From Rhodocaloribacter litoris (GTDB lineage Bacteria; Bacteroidota; Rhodothermia; Rhodothermales; ISCAR-4553), in the NCBI RefSeq assembly GCF_011682235.2, contig NZ_CP076718.1:2055782-2119781 (forward strand): a stretch of DNA of 64,000 nucleotides. Direction: 5' to 3'. Positions 3,754 to 45,804 of this stretch are shown in pieces (position 1 is the first letter of the stretch; each line of letters opens with the position of its first letter). The notes beneath the pieces were generated by a model. It saw nothing but the letters and a program-made list of their open reading frames with translations. It ran no database searches and was not told where the DNA came from. Made by a program: the position numbers and the translations under genes.

Positions 3754-3761
3754 GAGGTGTG

Positions 3762-3914
3762 GTGCATAGTGCGTAGTGCATAGTGCGTAGTGCATAGTGC
3801 GTAGTGCATAGTGCGTAGTGCGTAAAGGCGTAATTCAGCCCAACACGCACTACGAAATACGCAATACGAAATACGAAATACGAACCACGAACCACGCACT
3901 GCGAAATACAGAAT
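3762..3914. repeat. Inverted pair of degenerate heptamer arrays
   Basis: From 3762 to 3824 nine consecutive heptamers alternate GTGCATA and GTGCGTA. After ~20 bp, a second array (about 3845-3914) consists of ten heptamers in the opposite sense (ACGCACT, ACGAAAT, ACGCAAT, ACGAACC). The two arms are partly complementary and could fold into one long imperfect stem between the enoyl-CoA hydratase stop and the CorC start. No coding potential is evident. Short-period arrays of this look are spread through many genomes; function unknown. Confidence 0.85.
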
Positions 3915-31790: not shown

Positions 31791-31973
31791 GGGCTGTGGG
31801 GCTCCGGATCGGGCGACGACGGGAAATGAGGGGTCGCGGCACGCCCGCCGACCCGCCCGCCAATATACGCTGCGCCGAAGCCGCCTGCCATCCCGCCGGC
31901 TGACACGGGGCTGTCGCAACACGGGGCTACCTTGCCGTGTTCAAGCCCCTGCCTCAACAAGCCACCGGCCCCC

Positions 31974-35705
<3,732 letters not shown>

Positions 35706-35855: not shown

Positions 35856-35945
35856 GGAGAGGTGGGTGAGTGGCTGAAACCACCGGTTTGCTAAACCGGC
35901 GTACGTCGAACAGACGTACCGAGGGTTCGAATCCCTCCCTCTCCG
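35856..35945 (+). tRNA. tRNA-Ser(GCU)
   Basis: Acceptor stem GGAGAGG/CCTCTCC, D-arm, anticodon stem CCGGT/ACCGG with loop TTGCTAA (anticodon GCT at 35890-35892), a long variable arm with paired GTACGTC and GACGTAC typical of class II serine tRNA, T-arm GAGGG-TTCGAAT-CCCTC, and discriminator G. 90 nt. CA follows the discriminator but a full CCA is not encoded. The 3' end is the attachment site of the mobile element. Confidence 0.95.
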
Positions 35946-35947
35946 CA
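35934..35947 (+). repeat. attL: core repeat at the tRNA-Ser 3' end
   Basis: CCTCCCTCTCCGCA covers the end of the T-stem, the 3' acceptor strand and the discriminator. Just before it, GGGTTCGA (35923-35930) is also shared with the right end, with three mismatched bases in between. Confidence 0.9.
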
Positions 35948-38450: not shown

Positions 38451-38756
38451 TTATCCGCTCCCGACCCACGCCTTGAAGTCGGCCAGTCGCATTACCACCA
38501 GGTCCTCGTCGTGCCGTCGCCCCCGCTCGTGCAGGACGGCGACGGGTAGTTGATCCTCCCGTGCGGCGGCCTCGGCCTGGCGCATGGCATCCTCGATCCA
38601 GGCGGGCAGGCGGCTCCGGTGCTTGATCTCGATACTCAGCCAGGCGTGCGCCACGTCGGGCGCGTCGCCACGGGCGCGGCCGGTGACGGGCACGCGGCGG
38701 CCATTCAGGCGGGCGGCCACGGCGCGTTCGGTGCGTTTCCACGATTTTTCAGGCAT
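38451..38756 (-). CDS. Putative PD-(D/E)XK nuclease / resolvase-like protein
   Basis: The 101-residue protein reads SWKRTERAVAARLNGRRVPV, then APDVAHAWLSIEIKHRSRLP, then DQLPVAVLHERGRRHDEDLV. The order Glu, then PDV ... EIK, then Gln/Pro-containing helix is that of small PD-(D/E)XK nucleases such as phage Holliday-junction resolvases. ATG 38756 is used; the frame is open for 39 nt upstream. A role in resolving replication intermediates of the element is inference. Confidence 0.65.
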   Translation of the reverse strand: MPEKSWKRTERAVAARLNGRRVPVTGRARGDAPDVAHAWLSIEIKHRSRLPAWIEDAMRQAEAAAREDQLPVAVLHERGRRHDEDLVVMRLADFKAWVGSG

Positions 38757-38803
38757 TTCGAGTTGCTCCGGCCTAAGTGTAACAACTTGCACCAACTTGC
38801 GCG

Positions 38804-39019
38804 TCAGTTTCTCGACAGTCCCCCCTCCAGGGTGATGTCCGGGTCACAGCGGCAGCGCCCGCCCCGCAGGGCAGGGCAGCCGTGGTCATGGCGGACCACC
38901 ACGTCCCAGAGTCCCGGGCCAACGAGCAGTTCGCCGCGCCGGATCATCTCGAGCATCTTGCGGACGTAGGGCGGCACAGGGCCACCCCGCTTGTGCTTCG
39001 AGCGGTGTCGCTCAAACAT
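38804..39019 (-). CDS. Small phage-type protein with a Cys cluster
   Basis: The 71-residue protein ends VVVRHDHGCPALRGGRCRCD then PDITL; the H-D-x2-C-x5-G-x2-C-x-C-x-P pattern is frequent in short phage proteins and suggests a metal site. It overlaps the end of the upstream gene by 8 bp, indicating translational coupling. Function unknown. Confidence 0.65.
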   Translation of the reverse strand: MFERHRSKHKRGGPVPPYVRKMLEMIRRGELLVGPGLWDVVVRHDHGCPALRGGRCRCDPDITLEGGLSRN

Positions 39020-39548
39020 CGGACTCCTCCGTTTGCAGGTAGCGGCGGCTCAGGGCCTCCATCGTCTCCCGGCCGTAAGCCCGGTGCAGCTCGCGCACCA
39101 GGTCGAAGGCCACGTCCAGACTCTGCCCACGGTCGGCCTCCCGCAGGACCTCCGCGATGCTGTGGTAAAACTCGACGGGCTCCTCGACACGCCCCCAGCC
39201 CTCCAGGTCGAACGGCCGGCGCGGCAGGTAGACGCTGGCGTACCAGAACCAGGCGCACAGGAAGCCCTCCTCCAGGTTGCCGCCGAAGGCGTCGTCGAAG
39301 TAGGAGAGCGGCTCGATGCAGGCCCGCCAGCGCTCGGGGTCCGCACCCTCCGGCACGGCGTCCGCCATGAAGGTCAGGATGCGGTCCAGCAGCAGGCGGT
39401 CCCGGAGCAGGTCGCGGTGTCGTCGCAGGGCCGCCAGCACGTCGGGCGGCAGGCGGTCGGCCGGGTCGTAGTAGACGCGGCCGCCCGGCGTGGCCCAGAG
39501 CCGCACGCCCCGCCGTCGAGCCTCGTCAAGGGCCTGTGTCAGTTCCAT
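39012..39548 (-). CDS. Protein with TubC-like N-terminal segment
   Basis: The first ~50 residues (ALDEARRRGVRLWATPGGRV then YYDPADRLPPDVLAALRRHR) resemble the TubC N-terminal docking domain that also appears in many phage and plasmid primase-associated proteins. The remainder is helical and acidic with DDAFGGNLEEGFLCAWFWYA; no family recognised. It is the first gene after the inverted 9-mer array, and its leader lies in that array. Confidence 0.65.
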   Translation of the reverse strand: MELTQALDEARRRGVRLWATPGGRVYYDPADRLPPDVLAALRRHRDLLRDRLLLDRILTFMADAVPEGADPERWRACIEPLSYFDDAFGGNLEEGFLCAWFWYASVYLPRRPFDLEGWGRVEEPVEFYHSIAEVLREADRGQSLDVAFDLVRELHRAYGRETMEALSRRYLQTEESDV

Positions 39549-39579: not shown

Positions 39580-39682
39580 TGTCCGCAATGTCCTTAATGT
39601 CCTTAATGTCCTTAACGCACATATCTTGCACATACAATGTAAACGTTTACGGACGTTACGGACATTACGGACACGGCGGACA
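39580..39682. repeat. Inverted arrays of four plus four 9-mers (iteron-like)
   Basis: Four tandem 9-mers, TGTCCGCAA then three TGTCCTTAA, occupy 39580-39615. After a 31-bp AT-rich spacer, four 9-mers in the opposite sense, TTACGGACG, two TTACGGACA and CGGCGGACA, occupy 39647-39682 and end against the primase stop codon. The arms are largely complementary and could form a ~36-bp stem. Next to a primase-polymerase gene, the best reading is a replication origin or initiator-binding site. Confidence 0.85.
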
Positions 39683-41917
39683 TCACAGCGCGGCGGGCCG
39701 CTCGTGGCGCTCGTAGACGCCCCGGCGTGGCGAGTGCAGGAGCCCCTCGGCCTCCAGGCGCTCCAGCCACCGGCGGGCCGTCCGGTCGGTGACACCGGCG
39801 GCCACGGCGGCAGCCTCGTAGTCGCTCGTCTCGAACGTCTCGGGCAGCGTCTCCAGCACGGCCAGGGCCCGGCGGACTACGTCGTCCGCCTCCAGCGTCT
39901 CACGCAGGGCGCGGCTCGCCAGCGCCAGCGTCTGGCGGGCGTAGCTCAGCCCCAGCGTCAGGGCCGCCTCGAACGCCTCCGGCGCCGCCTCGATGCGGTC
40001 GGCCCGGTCCAGGCGGACGCCCCGCGCCGGCGCCTCGATGCAGGTCAGCACGGCGGCGATCCGTACCGTGCTCAGGGCGGCGCGTTTGACGACGGCGGCC
40101 AGCGCGTCGGGAGCCTGTCCGCGGGCGGCGGCCTCGACGACGCGGCCGTGCAGGTCCTCGAAGGCGTCGTCCAGCTTGTCCCACATATCCGGCGTCAGGT
40201 CGAGCCGGAGCGGCATGTCCCGCGTCCTCAGGGCCTCCCATACCTCGGTGAGACACCCCCGCAGGGCCTCCAGGGCGGCCCGCAGGCGCTCGTCGCCCGG
40301 CCGCGGACGCTGCGACACCCAGCGCGGCGGATCGTGGATCGTGGCGATCAGGAAACGGGAGTACAGGCCGTTCTCGACGCCCCCCTCGATCAGGCGATCC
40401 AGCTGTGCGGGCGTGCCGGCCAGGGCCAGGCTCAGCACCACGCGCTCGCAGACGATCAGGCCACCGGATCGCGTCTCCCGGCGGTGCGGCTCGTGGTGGA
40501 ACCCTTTGCGGAGCAGGTGCGAGAACGCCCCCCACTCCTGGCGCAGGGCGGCCGTCAGGGAGTCGGCCTCGCTGGAGAAGAGCAGCACCCCGTCCGGGTT
40601 GTCGGCCAGGGCCCGCGTCAGGGCGGCCTCGCTCGTGCTCTCGCTGGCGACGACGTACTGCATGGGCGGCTCGGGCGGCGGGTCTTCGCCCGTCTCCGAC
40701 GCCTCCCGGCGGCGGCGCTCCCAGTCGGCGCGGGCCTCCTCGCTCGCCCGGCGCAGGCGCTCGTCGATGTCGTCGAGCAGGCGGGCGGCCAGCGTGGCAC
40801 CGCCCTTGCCCGCCCCGGCCGGGCCGACGACCAGGGTCATCAGGGCGGGCGTATGCTCCCGCCCTCCGTAGAGGATCGAGACGCGGCCCAGGGCGGCCGA
40901 TGCGACGGCCAGGGCGGCCGTCAGGAAGGCGGCTCGCTCGCCCTCGGTCCGCAGGTCGTCCAGGGCGGCCCGCAGCGGCGGCGGCAGCAGGTGCCGCACG
41001 TCGGGCAGGACCTCGGGAGATCGCGGCTCCTGCGGGCGCTCAGGCGGCTCAGGCGGCGTCTCGGGCGGCAGGCAGGCGGCCACGTCGTCAGGGCGCGGCA
41101 GGTTTTTGACGACCTCGGCCAGGATCGCGGAGACGGTCGTCTCAGGCTCGTAGCGGACCACAGAGCGGGCGATACGGATCACCTCCTCCTCGTCGAGCGG
41201 CGGGCGGCAGGCGCGGGCGTTGATCCCCAGCAGGGCGGCCTCGATGGCCTCCTGCCCCAGCCCCTGGCGTCGCAGGGCGCCCGCGTGCGCGGCCAATGTG
41301 GCGTTACGCCGCCCCGCCGGGATCGTCTCGTCCTCGCTCCCGGCCGCGGGCGTCGTACGCTCGGGCCGGCGGCGGGCGGCTCCCAGGCGCTCCAGCAGCG
41401 CCGGCGGGCAGGCGGGCGGCGGCTCACCGGGACGCGGGCGGACGATCCACCGGTATGCTCCCTGCTCGGTCCGGCTCGGCGCGGCCACGACGTAGGCCCT
41501 CCCCATACCTCGCAGGTCGAGCCCCGGCAGGGCCCCGGCGCGGGTCGGCAGGTGCAGGTCCTCCGGGACGCTGGCGACGATGTGGCAGCCGCCCCGCGGC
41601 GTCTGCTGGCGCGGTGCGTGGCGCAGGGCCGGGTACTCACCCAGTAGCTCGGTGGCCAGGCGCGGCTCGTCGAGATCGAGCACCAGGATGCCCGGCGGCG
41701 GCAGCACGGCCACGTTGGCGTTCGGGCGATCCTGCCACCACCGCCGGATCGTCTCCGGGTCGGTCGTGGCGTCTCGCAGCCCGTGCGGCACCAGCGGCCC
41801 CAGGGGCGCTTTGCCGCCCGGCTCGCAGGGCAGGACGGGCCAGCCCAGGCGCTCCGCGTAGGCCAGGGCGGCGCGGCCCAGGGCGGGCACGGCGCCGTTG
41901 GTGTGCGTCGTGCTCAT
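39683..41917 (-). CDS. Primase-polymerase / DUF3987 helicase-like replication protein
   Basis: The 744-residue protein has an N-terminal prim-pol domain (about 10-180): WPVLPCEPGGKAPLGPLVPH, the catalytic VLDLDEP, TPRGGCHIV and GLDLRGMGRAYVVAAPS. A primase-C-terminal-like segment follows (GRRNATLAAHAGALRRQGLG). From about 330 comes a DUF3987/P-loop domain with VVGPAGAGKGGATLA and SSEADSLTAALR. The last ~60 residues form a winged-helix-like region (VAAGVTDRTARRWLERLEAE). It should prime and unwind the element's DNA, i.e. autonomous replication after excision. It overlaps the next upstream gene by 4 bp. Confidence 0.9.
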   Translation of the reverse strand: MSTTHTNGAVPALGRAALAYAERLGWPVLPCEPGGKAPLGPLVPHGLRDATTDPETIRRWWQDRPNANVAVLPPPGILVLDLDEPRLATELLGEYPALRHAPRQQTPRGGCHIVASVPEDLHLPTRAGALPGLDLRGMGRAYVVAAPSRTEQGAYRWIVRPRPGEPPPACPPALLERLGAARRRPERTTPAAGSEDETIPAGRRNATLAAHAGALRRQGLGQEAIEAALLGINARACRPPLDEEEVIRIARSVVRYEPETTVSAILAEVVKNLPRPDDVAACLPPETPPEPPERPQEPRSPEVLPDVRHLLPPPLRAALDDLRTEGERAAFLTAALAVASAALGRVSILYGGREHTPALMTLVVGPAGAGKGGATLAARLLDDIDERLRRASEEARADWERRRREASETGEDPPPEPPMQYVVASESTSEAALTRALADNPDGVLLFSSEADSLTAALRQEWGAFSHLLRKGFHHEPHRRETRSGGLIVCERVVLSLALAGTPAQLDRLIEGGVENGLYSRFLIATIHDPPRWVSQRPRPGDERLRAALEALRGCLTEVWEALRTRDMPLRLDLTPDMWDKLDDAFEDLHGRVVEAAARGQAPDALAAVVKRAALSTVRIAAVLTCIEAPARGVRLDRADRIEAAPEAFEAALTLGLSYARQTLALASRALRETLEADDVVRRALAVLETLPETFETSDYEAAAVAAGVTDRTARRWLERLEAEGLLHSPRRGVYERHERPAAL

Positions 41918-42108
41918 GCCGGCACCCTCCCCGCCGTCAGCCGGCGGCGCTTGATCTCACGGGCGAGGATGCGGGCCACGTAGGCGCGGGCGCGGGCCAG
42001 GTCCTCGGCCGTCAGCGGCTCAAACCGGCATCTGGACGCGTCACGCGTCCATCGGCGGCGCTCCGGCGGCAGCATGGGCGGCACCGCCGGGTAGATGCGG
42101 GCGCTCAT
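41914..42108 (-). CDS. Small basic protein between excisionase and primase genes
   Basis: The 64-residue protein contains FEPLTAEDLARARAYVARIL and a basic REIKRRRLTAGR tail; no family recognised. It overlaps both neighbours by 4 bp (ATGA type), so it is translated in a coupled unit with the HTH protein and the primase. Possibly DNA-binding because of its charge. Confidence 0.65.
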   Translation of the reverse strand: MSARIYPAVPPMLPPERRRWTRDASRCRFEPLTAEDLARARAYVARILAREIKRRRLTAGRVPA

Positions 42109-42299
42109 CGCTCCACCTCCGCGCCGTGCTCGATCAGGCGCTCGATGTCGCTGGCGCGGAAGCGCACGGCGCGGCCGATGTGGACGGCCTCGATCACGCC
42201 CCGGCGGCGCAGCTGGTGGAGCGTCGTCCTCCCGATGCGGAGGATGTCGAGGACCTCACGGACCGTGAGGAGCCGGTCCGAAGCGTTGGGCTTTTTCAT
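42105..42299 (-). CDS. Excisionase/AlpA-like helix-turn-helix protein
   Basis: The 64-residue product reads LLTVREVLDILRIGRTTLHQ, then LRRRGVIEAVHIGRAVRFRA and DIERLI, the standard winged HTH_17/AlpA-type fold of excisionases and phage regulators. Located in the integrase operon, it probably directs excision or regulates int, with the TCCGCAAGG arm repeats as possible sites. It overlaps the next gene by 4 bp. Confidence 0.85.
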   Translation of the reverse strand: MKKPNASDRLLTVREVLDILRIGRTTLHQLRRRGVIEAVHIGRAVRFRASDIERLIEHGAEVER

Positions 42300-42912: not shown

Positions 42913-44125
42913 GTGCTGCGTCAAGGATCATCTGCCGGGTAGGATAGTAGCTTCAACAGTCGCTCACTCCTGAAGCCACTTCCTGCCATGGCCAAAAAAT
43001 ACTGCGTCACGCTCAATGACAGTGAACGCCAGCACCTCGATGACCTCATTGAGCGGCGTTCAAAAGGTGTCCCGCCGGTCAAACGAGCCTTCATGCTGCT
43101 CAAAGCAGACCAGAGCCAGGGCGCACCGGCCTGGACCGATGAACGCATCGCCGAAAGCTACAACGTCAGTGTCCGAACCGTCGAGCGCTTACGTCGGCGC
43201 TTCGTCGAAGAAGGCTTCGAGGTGGCTCTCTACGGCAAAAAACGCGAACCGGTTAAAGAGAAGATCTTCGACGGGCAGGTCGAGGCTCATCTGGTGGCCC
43301 TGCGCTGTTCAGAGCCGCCGGAAGGCTTTGCCCGGTGGTCGCTCCGCCTTCTGGCTGACCGTATGATCGAACTCGGTTACGTCGAATCGATCTCGCATGA
43401 GAGCGTGCGGCAGTTGCTTAAAAAAACGAACTCAAGCCCTGGCGCGTTAAGTCGTGGGTAATTCCTCAGGCCGATGCCGCCTTCGTCTGCCAGATGGAGC
43501 AAGTGCTCGATGTCTACGCCCGGCCCTACGACCCGCTCCGACCGGTTGTGTGCCTCGACGAAGCGCGCAAGCAACTCATCAGCGAGGTGCGACAGCCCTT
43601 CACGCGTGCCGACGGGGTGCGGCACGTGGATTACGAGTACAAACGCGAAGGGACCCGCACGCTCTATATGCTCTGCGAGCCCCTGGGCGGCTTCCGGAAG
43701 GTGCTCGTCAAGGAGCGTCAGGACCGTTTGACCTGGGCTCGTGTGGTGGCCCACCTCGTCGAAGACCTCTATCCAGACGCCGAGACGATCACGCTGGTTC
43801 AGGACAACCTCTCCGCGCACACCGCCTCGGCGCTCTACGAGGTCTTCGACGCCGAGCGCGCCCGGCGCATCGTGCGCAAGTTGGAGATAGTCTCGACGCC
43901 GGTGCATGGTTCGTGGTTGAACATGGCCGAGATCGAGCTTTCGGTGCTGGTTCGTCAGGGTCTCTGTCGCCGCATCGGCAATGCATCGCAGTTAGAGGGC
44001 GAGATCGCCGCCTGGTACGAGGCGCGCAACGCAAAGCAGCGGGGTGTAGACTGGCAGTTCACGACGGCGGATGCGCGGGTGAAGTTGAAGCGGCTATACC
44101 CGTCAATTATAACTTGACACAGCAC
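42913..44125 (+). mobile_element. IS630-family insertion sequence
   Basis: The ends are GTGCTGCGTCAAG (left) and CTTGACACAGCAC (right), 13-bp inverted repeats with one mismatch, flanked by TA on both sides (42911-42912 and 44126-44127), the TA duplication expected of IS630/Tc1-mariner elements. Length 1213 bp. It carries one frameshifted transposase gene opposite in direction to the gene it disrupts. Confidence 0.93.
42988..44117 (+). CDS. IS630-family transposase, made by -1 frameshift
   Basis: The first frame (42988-43461) encodes an N-terminal HTH region (ADQSQGAPAWTDERIAESYN, VRTVERLRRRFVEEGF). The second frame contains the DDE domain with VVCLDEAR (Asp), LVQDNLSAH (Asp) and NMAEIELS (Glu), ending at 44117. 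A run of seven A at 43420-43426 (GCTTAAAAAAACG) allows a -1 slip that joins them as QLLKKNELKPWRVKSWVIPQ, which matches IS630 proteins across the junction. Programmed frameshifting is therefore more likely than decay. Confidence 0.9.
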
Positions 44126-44459: not shown

Positions 44460-45641
44460 TCACATCCCCCTGAAAGCCGCCTCGATGCGGCGGCGGCGGG
44501 CGTCGTCCCAACTCCCGACGTAGCGTTGCAGCGTGTCCAGGTCGGCGTGCGTCAATCCCAGCAGGGCCCCGGTGCCGGCCTCGTGAACCACCGTGGTGAT
44601 GAAGCTTCTCCGGCCGCTGTGCAGACTCAGCACCTGCCACTTCGGCCGCGTCTCGCCGCCGGGCAGGCGGACGGGCGCCTCGATCCCGGCAAGGCGGGCC
44701 ACCTCCTTCAGGTACCGGTTGGCCCGCTGCTCACTGATGCGCGGCACGGGCGTGCGGGCGCCCGCCTCCCGGCGCTCCCGTAGCATCCGCCGGGCGGGCG
44801 ACACCAGCGGCCAGCGGTGAAAGACGTTGGTTTTGTGCTCCCGCAGCAGCCAGACGCCTTCCTCCAGGTCGATCGTCCCCCACGCCGGAGGCTTCATGCC
44901 CTCCTTCAGGTCTGAGACGCGAAGGCCGGTGTAGCAGGCCAGCAGCAGCAGGAAGCGGGCCCGCTCGTAACCCTCGGGCAGGTCCGACAGGTCGGCGCCC
45001 TCGATCGCCTTGATCTCGTGCGGCGTCAGGAACACAGCGTCGCGGCGGCTCTCCGGCAGCGGCGCAACCTCCGGGACCTCCGGGATCAGCCCGCGCCCGT
45101 GCAGCCACTTGAGGAAGTTTTTCGTGTAACTCACGTGGCGGTTGGCCGTCGCGTGCGACAGGCCCGCGTGCTGTGCGAGAAAGGCTTGATAGCGTTCGAG
45201 GAAGGCGCGATCCACCACGGCCACGGTGGCCCCACGCGGCAGGAACGCCTCCAGGTGAAGGCGGATGCGCCGCAGCACCTCCAGGCTCGACGGGCGGACG
45301 CGGACGGCCTTCACCTCCAGCCACTCCTCGAACAGCCCCATCAGGTCGTGCGTCGCCCCTTGAAGGCCCAGGTCCTCCCGGATCGCGCCGGCCACGTCGT
45401 CGAGCGGCAGGCCGTCGAGCAGCAGGGCCTCGGCCCGGTGCTGGATGCGTTCGAGCCGGGCGTTGACCTCGACGGCACCGGGAGCCGATGCGCGAAGGCG
45501 CCCCCGGCGCTTGTTCCAGTCCCGCGGCGCCACACGCAAGGGCAGGTTGATCCACTTCTGCTGTCGCCCCCGCAGCAGGGCCAGACGTACGGTGCAGCGG
45601 CCGTCAGGGCCGGGCCGGTCCAGGTAGTATTTCGCAGCCAT
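44460..45641 (-). CDS. Tyrosine recombinase (integrase) of the element
   Basis: The 393-residue integrase has an N-terminal arm-binding/SAM-like region (RPSSLEVLRRIRLHLEAFLP, SHATANRHVSYTKNFLKWLH) and a C-terminal catalytic domain. Arg is in CYTGLRVSDLKEG, the His-x2-Arg pair in LSLHSGRRSFITT, a His in GLTHADLD and the nucleophile Tyr in LQRYVGSWDD. ATG 45641 is the start; the frame stays open through attR but that part is unrelated. It integrates the element at tRNA-Ser. The arm-type repeat at 45649-45675 lies directly upstream. Confidence 0.93.
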   Translation of the reverse strand: MAAKYYLDRPGPDGRCTVRLALLRGRQQKWINLPLRVAPRDWNKRRGRLRASAPGAVEVNARLERIQHRAEALLLDGLPLDDVAGAIREDLGLQGATHDLMGLFEEWLEVKAVRVRPSSLEVLRRIRLHLEAFLPRGATVAVVDRAFLERYQAFLAQHAGLSHATANRHVSYTKNFLKWLHGRGLIPEVPEVAPLPESRRDAVFLTPHEIKAIEGADLSDLPEGYERARFLLLLACYTGLRVSDLKEGMKPPAWGTIDLEEGVWLLREHKTNVFHRWPLVSPARRMLRERREAGARTPVPRISEQRANRYLKEVARLAGIEAPVRLPGGETRPKWQVLSLHSGRRSFITTVVHEAGTGALLGLTHADLDTLQRYVGSWDDARRRRIEAAFRGM

Positions 45642-45790: not shown

Positions 45791-45804
45791 CCTCCCTCTC
45801 CGCA
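45791..45804 (+). repeat. attR: core repeat
   Basis: Perfect copy of the 14-bp attL core, preceded by GGGTTCGA (45780-45787) and three mismatched bases. A terminator hairpin follows 5 bp later, probably the original terminator of tRNA-Ser. Confidence 0.9.

Follow-up and report, generated by a model that had tools for sequence, protein, structure and literature searches.

A convergent array of 9-bp repeats behind a DUF3987 primase-helicase gene of Rhodocaloribacter litoris, a probable replication site of a small integrated element

What is the function of an inverted array of short repeats that directly adjoins the stop codon of a primase-helicase gene in Rhodocaloribacter litoris? The array lies in a stretch of 64,000 nt (NZ_CP076718.1, positions 2,055,782–2,119,781 of the forward strand), here called the window, on which all coordinates below are based. 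As the original prediction had it, eight 9-mers occur beside the primase gene in a 4+4 inverted arrangement, in which a 31-bp centre separates four TGTCCNNNN units from four inverted ones (39580–39682). The left arm (39580–39615, plus strand) is built of 9-bp units with a TGTCC core and a 4-nt spacer, TGTCCGCAA being followed by three copies of TGTCCTTAA. The right arm (39647–39682, minus strand) consists of TTACGGACG, two copies of TTACGGACA, and CGGCGGACA, which on the minus strand are TGTCCGCCG, two copies of TGTCCGTAA, and CGTCCGTAA. The core is exact in seven of the eight units. The array was also said to end exactly at the primase stop codon, and it does, the sequence in gene direction being CTG TGA TGTCCGCCG. 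The predicted symmetry around a 31-bp AT-rich centre stands as far as the window is concerned, the centre (39616–39646) being 61% AT within a GC-rich element, but AT-richness does not hold as a general feature, as array centres in relatives range from 41 to 79% AT.

When the region was scored for convergent cores with a period of 9, the array reached seven exact cores; when the 700 bp around it were dinucleotide-shuffled 3000 times, the best score was four. No second copy was found in the 4.5-Mb genome with a two-unit pattern allowing up to 2 mismatches; a control pattern likewise gave 0 matches. Short tandem repeats of another kind, with 7- and 14-bp periods (GTGCATAGTGCGTA and TACGAAA types), occur far from the array at 3756–3897.

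The array is housed in an integrated element of ~9.86 kb that occupies a tRNA-Ser(GCT) gene (35856–35946, plus strand) and is bounded by 14-bp att repeats, one (CCTCCCTCTCCGCA; 35934–35947, plus strand) at the 3′ end of the tRNA and the other (45791–45804, plus strand) upstream of the integrase. Its minus-strand genes include a tyrosine integrase (44460–45641) with Arm-DNA-bind_5, Phage_int_SAM_5 and Phage_integrase domains and a likely start, MAAKYYLD, at 45641; a 64-aa excisionase/AlpA-like protein (42105–42299) with an HTH_17 domain match; and a RusA-like or Holliday junction resolvase-like protein (38451–38795). A related element of 6.25 kb in genome G017 is likewise inserted in a tRNA-Ser gene and shows the same order of tRNA, primase and integrase. 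By eye, two adjacent ORFs at 42988–44117 in the window, between the excisionase-like gene and the integrase, resemble an IS630-type transposase. A search of the neighboring genes for a defence system gave nothing convincing. Elsewhere in the window, at 31932–35705, a UvrB frame is apparently split by an intein after the P-loop GATGTGKS, with the intein ending in HGGLFVHN before TFTIANV (also by eye).

The primase-helicase itself (39683–41917, minus strand) is a protein of 744 aa in which Pfam searches and modeling identified a Prim-Pol domain (residues 17–171), PriCT_1 (197–258), the putative helicase DUF3987 (328–668) and a winged helix-turn-helix (wHTH; ~680–740). DUF3987 is the sole ATPase domain found by Pfam, and no SF3 helicase domain or DUF5906 was detected in the protein; Fis was likewise absent among the element ORFs scanned. 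The full-length AlphaFold prediction was poor (pLDDT 44), and for this reason only the C-terminal wHTH was modeled (pLDDT 85). With that model, Foldseek matched winged helices of a generic kind and gave no E-value below 0.001, and a sequence search of solved structures gave no clear relative of the protein. Nor did the protein, or that of locus L239, have relatives among the viral contigs queried.

The gene that follows the array (39012–39548, minus strand) encodes a 178-aa protein with a TubC_N-like N terminus, a weak match (E 0.0019) below the curated cut-off. The original prediction had offered either this protein or the primase as the one that binds the repeats. Since the domain match is weak and array-bearing relatives generally have no such neighbor, the TubC-like protein was set aside as the less likely binder, in favor of the C-terminal winged helix of the primase. 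By eye, a TubC_N-like small protein also follows the DUF3987 gene in genome G009 (L312).

Whether the array is peculiar to this element was addressed by gathering DUF3987 loci across the order and the phylum on the strength of the domain alone, with repeats ignored. In the first set of 42 loci, counted here without G033, the window and the array locus of G057, the density of five-mer pairs at a lag of 9 was 17.1 per kb over the first 150 bp past the gene; gene bodies had 2.9 and sequence farther downstream 2.1. Inverted arrays with a period of 8 to 10 were present within −450 to +150 of the stop codon at 9 of the 42 loci, a figure that takes in G057 and G033, and at none of 172 control windows or 840 shuffles. 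An identical recipe applied to a held-out set of 54 DUF3987 loci gave 15.9 lag-9 pairs per kb after the gene versus 2.0 and 1.4 elsewhere, with inverted arrays at 8/54 loci versus 2/221 controls. As for other gene types, lag-9 pairs numbered 1.4 per kb behind integrases and 10.5 behind VapE helicases.

Lags of 9 and 18 are the strongest signal behind DUF3987 genes, and several loci, among them G033, carry direct repeats only. At least two lag-9 matches were found at 37/94 loci versus 6% of control windows, so that some relatives are without obvious repeats; reading the sequences by eye added further imperfect arrays, with none visible at some loci. The origin prediction had been staked on related elements with the same primase not lacking the repeats. 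Repeats of 9 bp do occur at the corresponding position in many relatives, albeit with other cores, and some relatives have none detectable, an outcome that is favorable overall. In G057 and G017 the array falls within the reading frame, just past the part encoding the wHTH, and the gene end as such is thus not what matters. The primases of these two genomes seemingly share a related C-terminal extension past the array (L172:9057–9380 and L016:7069–7400, respectively), which the window protein does not have. In G033, besides the TGTCC array at the 3′ end of the DUF3987 gene, a second 9-bp array with GGAC occurs in the 5′ coding end (L018:4879–4913).

The repeated word itself varies. TGTCC is the core in the window, G057, G033, L239, L263, L274 and L288, while other DUF3987 genes are followed by TTCGG (G017), TGGCG, TGGCA, TGCA-type, TTGCC and other cores. 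The G017 protein is 55% identical to that of the window in DUF3987 and 37% in the wHTH, and its core differs, whereas the G057 protein is 30% identical in DUF3987 and 42% in the wHTH, and its core is the same. Core word and winged helix appear, in a post hoc test, to change together. An arginine in the putative recognition helix was found at 18/24 loci with a GG/CC-containing core versus 2/15 others (Fisher 2.4e-4, or 6e-4 with near-identical cases collapsed); as the position was chosen from 14 after inspection and the statistic ignores shared descent, the association is regarded as a lead.

Convergent TGTCC arrays were also sought in genome and viral contigs with no protein used in the search. 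Five of these either adjoined the 3′ end of a DUF3987 gene or lay within that end; four are new and one (L297) is the G057 locus, which another pattern search had already picked up. Among 30 large ORFs neighboring TGTCC arrays, chosen for their length and their closeness to the array irrespective of annotation, 20 coded for a replication ATPase or a primase-helicase: AAA_25, alone or combined with Prim-Pol, RepB_primase, PriCT_2, Toprim_3 or DnaB-N; VapE; DUF3987; D5_N with Prim-Pol and DUF5906; and DUF927 with Toprim_3. Lone AAA_25 matches count for less, as AAA_25 is a broad family. A scan of viral contigs with four TGTCC units gave a mixed result in which many arrays were in-frame coding repeats, and the convergent pattern was therefore used instead. 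Convergent TGTCC arrays, several of TGTCCACATTGTCCACA type, are present in viral contigs L187, L198, L204, L205, L216, L220, L229, L232, L237 and similar ones, and no large helicase ORF was found adjoining the array in these contigs.

A different distribution was encountered in a few MAGs, where several convergent 9-bp TGTCC arrays are dispersed, often between genes and, where tested, mostly away from replication genes. The loci concerned are L238, L249, L254, L260 and others of Prevotella UBA4217; L251, L255 and L262 of RUG598; L242, L274 and L293 of bog_950; L244, L246 and L284 of the Magnetococcales; and L269, L277, L295 and L299 of Planctomycetaceae Cc175. The dispersed copies are REP-like, unexplained, and something other than the arrays beside replication genes.

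An origin, bound by an initiator or formed by a long hairpin, was what the array had been proposed to be, and the comparative evidence strongly favors a cis-acting replication site of the adjoining primase-helicase. Judging from sequence, we consider it probable that the array is such a site, most likely the origin, of the small element and that it would be bound by the wHTH of the element's own primase-helicase. Following excision, the protein could attach through its C-terminal winged helix to the two convergent sets of iterons, each iteron being a 5-bp TGTCC core plus a loose 4-bp spacer, or 9 bp in all. The bound protein would probably take the form of two facing assemblies, between or beside which the DUF3987 ATPase may open the DNA, and the first primer could then be laid down by the Prim-Pol domain. 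Since the part of the gene that encodes the wHTH would sit next to the wHTH target, the two could be exchanged or co-evolve as one cassette, which would account for a layout that is constant among relatives and a core word that is not.

Of the two origin types originally offered, initiator binding is the better supported, if not decisively so. In a hairpin or cruciform origin, a stem-loop would be extruded from the 36-bp arms and recognized by its structure rather than by unit sequence, as proposed for the Sulfolobus plasmid pRN1. The window arms do fold strongly (RNA z −5.8, DNA z −5.9), and pRN1 needs an intact stem-loop of ~100 bp, one stem mutant of which became functional again once symmetry was restored (PMC4234260). 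This rescue, together with the failure to observe sequence-specific binding by the pRN1 replication protein in vitro (PMC4234260), favors a structural role in that plasmid. A stem, however, needs no direct 9-bp periodicity, and yet that periodicity is the dominant signal behind DUF3987 genes, with several loci having direct repeats only. The window arms are only 83% complementary, with 6/36 arm pairs mismatched, mostly at spacer positions, and with no unit pair fully matched. Moreover, across TGTCC arrays beside helicases, spacer identity was 0.57 for mirrored units, 0.50 for non-mirrored units and 0.60 for neighbors within an arm (p 0.08). Mirrored spacers being hardly more alike, and the window arms being mismatched, recognition of units is favored over recognition of a stem, and we regard a hairpin origin as unlikely. 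An accessory site, at which the helicase would bind while initiation took place elsewhere in the element and the two sites were looped together, seems to us similarly improbable. The precedent is the crr of phage P4, which matches the array in position, in its 9-bp spacing and in its convergent arrangement, and which lies ~4.5 kb from the P4 ori. On the other hand, convergent TGTCC cores were found clustered nowhere else within the 9.9-kb window element, and in the SaPIs the site in this position is the origin itself (PMC7581432).

Readings that involve gene expression fare worse. The array lies 31 bp upstream of the TubC_N-like gene start and could conceivably serve as an operator, binding a regulator of that gene or of the operon. 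Inverted repeats are often bound by regulators, and autoregulation is frequent among replication initiators. Against this, no sigma-70-like promoter was found at the array when scored against the consensus only; in relatives such an array can also be found where two genes converge or within the 3′-terminal coding sequence (L186, L202, G057, G017); and the conserved neighbor is the helicase gene rather than the next gene, all of which makes an operator very unlikely. Slightly further down the scale, and hardly to be credited, is the idea that the array forms a structure at the 3′ end of a transcript, or is a REP-like repeat, and plays no part in replication. The transcript would fold well, and the dispersed intergenic arrays of some MAGs offer a parallel, but the window array is single-copy, no T-tract terminator was found at it, and 9-bp repeats are specifically enriched behind replication helicases. 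Promoter and terminator readings of the array were rejected.

With the array read as an initiator-binding replication site, a broader possibility presents itself, which we advance tentatively and as something short of probable. Self-loading helicases of mobile elements in bacteria and archaea, though they belong to unrelated ATPase families (DUF3987, AAA_25/RepA-like, VapE, D5 and DUF927), might share an origin code, in which a C-terminal winged helix guides the helicase to 9-bp units of five specific and four loose bases at the end of its own gene. The wHTH and array would then constitute an exchangeable specificity cassette, and the "stem-loop" origin of pRN1 could be one of these, giving a new reading to an origin that its authors describe as iteron-free (PMC4234260). 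DUF3987 proteins are encoded by phage satellites as well as by integrated elements of other kinds, and a repeat array at the gene end gives this whole family a candidate origin that can be tested directly. The varying cores, in turn, provide a route to a winged-helix recognition code and to predicting the compatibility of elements within one cell.

How does the array compare with known systems? In the mostly non-subscription literature searched, no description was found of repeats behind DUF3987 genes or of the replication start site of DUF3987 elements. Kazlauskas et al. predicted DUF3987 to be a helicase and suggested that WH domains might recognize origins, with no mention of iterons (PMC5862659). 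PICMI satellites resemble the window element in being small and in encoding an integrase, AlpA and a DUF3987 primase (PMC10803314). They differ in having DUF5906 in the primase, a Fis gene and a fis integration site (PMC10803314), none of which applies to the window element in its tRNA-Ser gene; a text search of the PICMI description found no iterons (PMC10803314).

SaPI origins lie immediately 3′ of rep and contain short iterons that are recognized by the helicase C-terminal domain, apparently as two hexamers (PMC7581432), and in the PICIs of E. coli two iteron sets always flank an AT-rich region (PMC6092414). The window array is alike in starting at the stop codon, directly downstream of the helicase gene, and in having short iterons in two sets, one on each side of a centre; the C-terminal DNA-binding domain of the SaPI/PICI helicase is paralleled by the predicted C-terminal wHTH. 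The two iteron sets are shared; the centre is 61% AT in the window array, and AT-richness is not conserved among its relatives (41–79%). The window helicase is a DUF3987 fused to Prim-Pol rather than the staphylococcal-island type, DUF927, which was named for an S. aureus island (PMC5862659). Induction and packaging by a helper phage are further SaPI/PICI traits. In SCCmec, the C-terminal domain of Cch2 binds a repeat region 3′ of its gene, in which 23 bp hold three 5-nt iterons (PMC7581432), an arrangement that would fit the 5+4 spacing. Cch2 binding, unlike the window layout, needs direct rather than inverted repeats, and the primase, CCPol-MP, is separate.

In P4 (NC_001609), the crr iterons begin no more than 51 bp from the end of the alpha gene, with 9-bp spacing and convergent pairs ~36 bp apart, and crr is not annotated as an origin. 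As in the window, iterons spaced at 9 bp directly follow the gene for a one-polypeptide primase-helicase. P4 differs in its separate ori, its Toprim-type primase (PMC4234260) and its TTCAC core, where the window has a single site and a Prim-Pol with DUF3987.

The ~100-bp stem-loop of pRN1 lies 3′ of a Prim-Pol-helicase-WH gene, is genetically required and, with the replication operon, is sufficient (PMC4234260). The region reads TGTCCATAGTGTCC...GGACACTATGGACA and includes the TGTCC core itself; GGAC/GTCC cores at 9-bp spacing are seen in both pRN1 (TGTCCATAGTGTCCAAC...GTTGGACACTATGGACA) and pRN2 (GGACCGATAGGACA...TGTCCTATCGGTCC). Both plasmids therefore share with the window a long inverted repeat 3′ of such a gene and TGTCC/GGAC cores spaced at 9 bp. 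They have an SF3 helicase where the window has DUF3987, and in pRN1 the stem is nearly perfect and specific binding was not detected. Because the PICI, P4 and pRN1 classes each have a tested feature without counterpart in the window array, it is assigned to none of them. It is best read as a site that would work much as those of the PICIs/SaPIs, P4 and pRN1 do, here with the uncharacterized helicase DUF3987.
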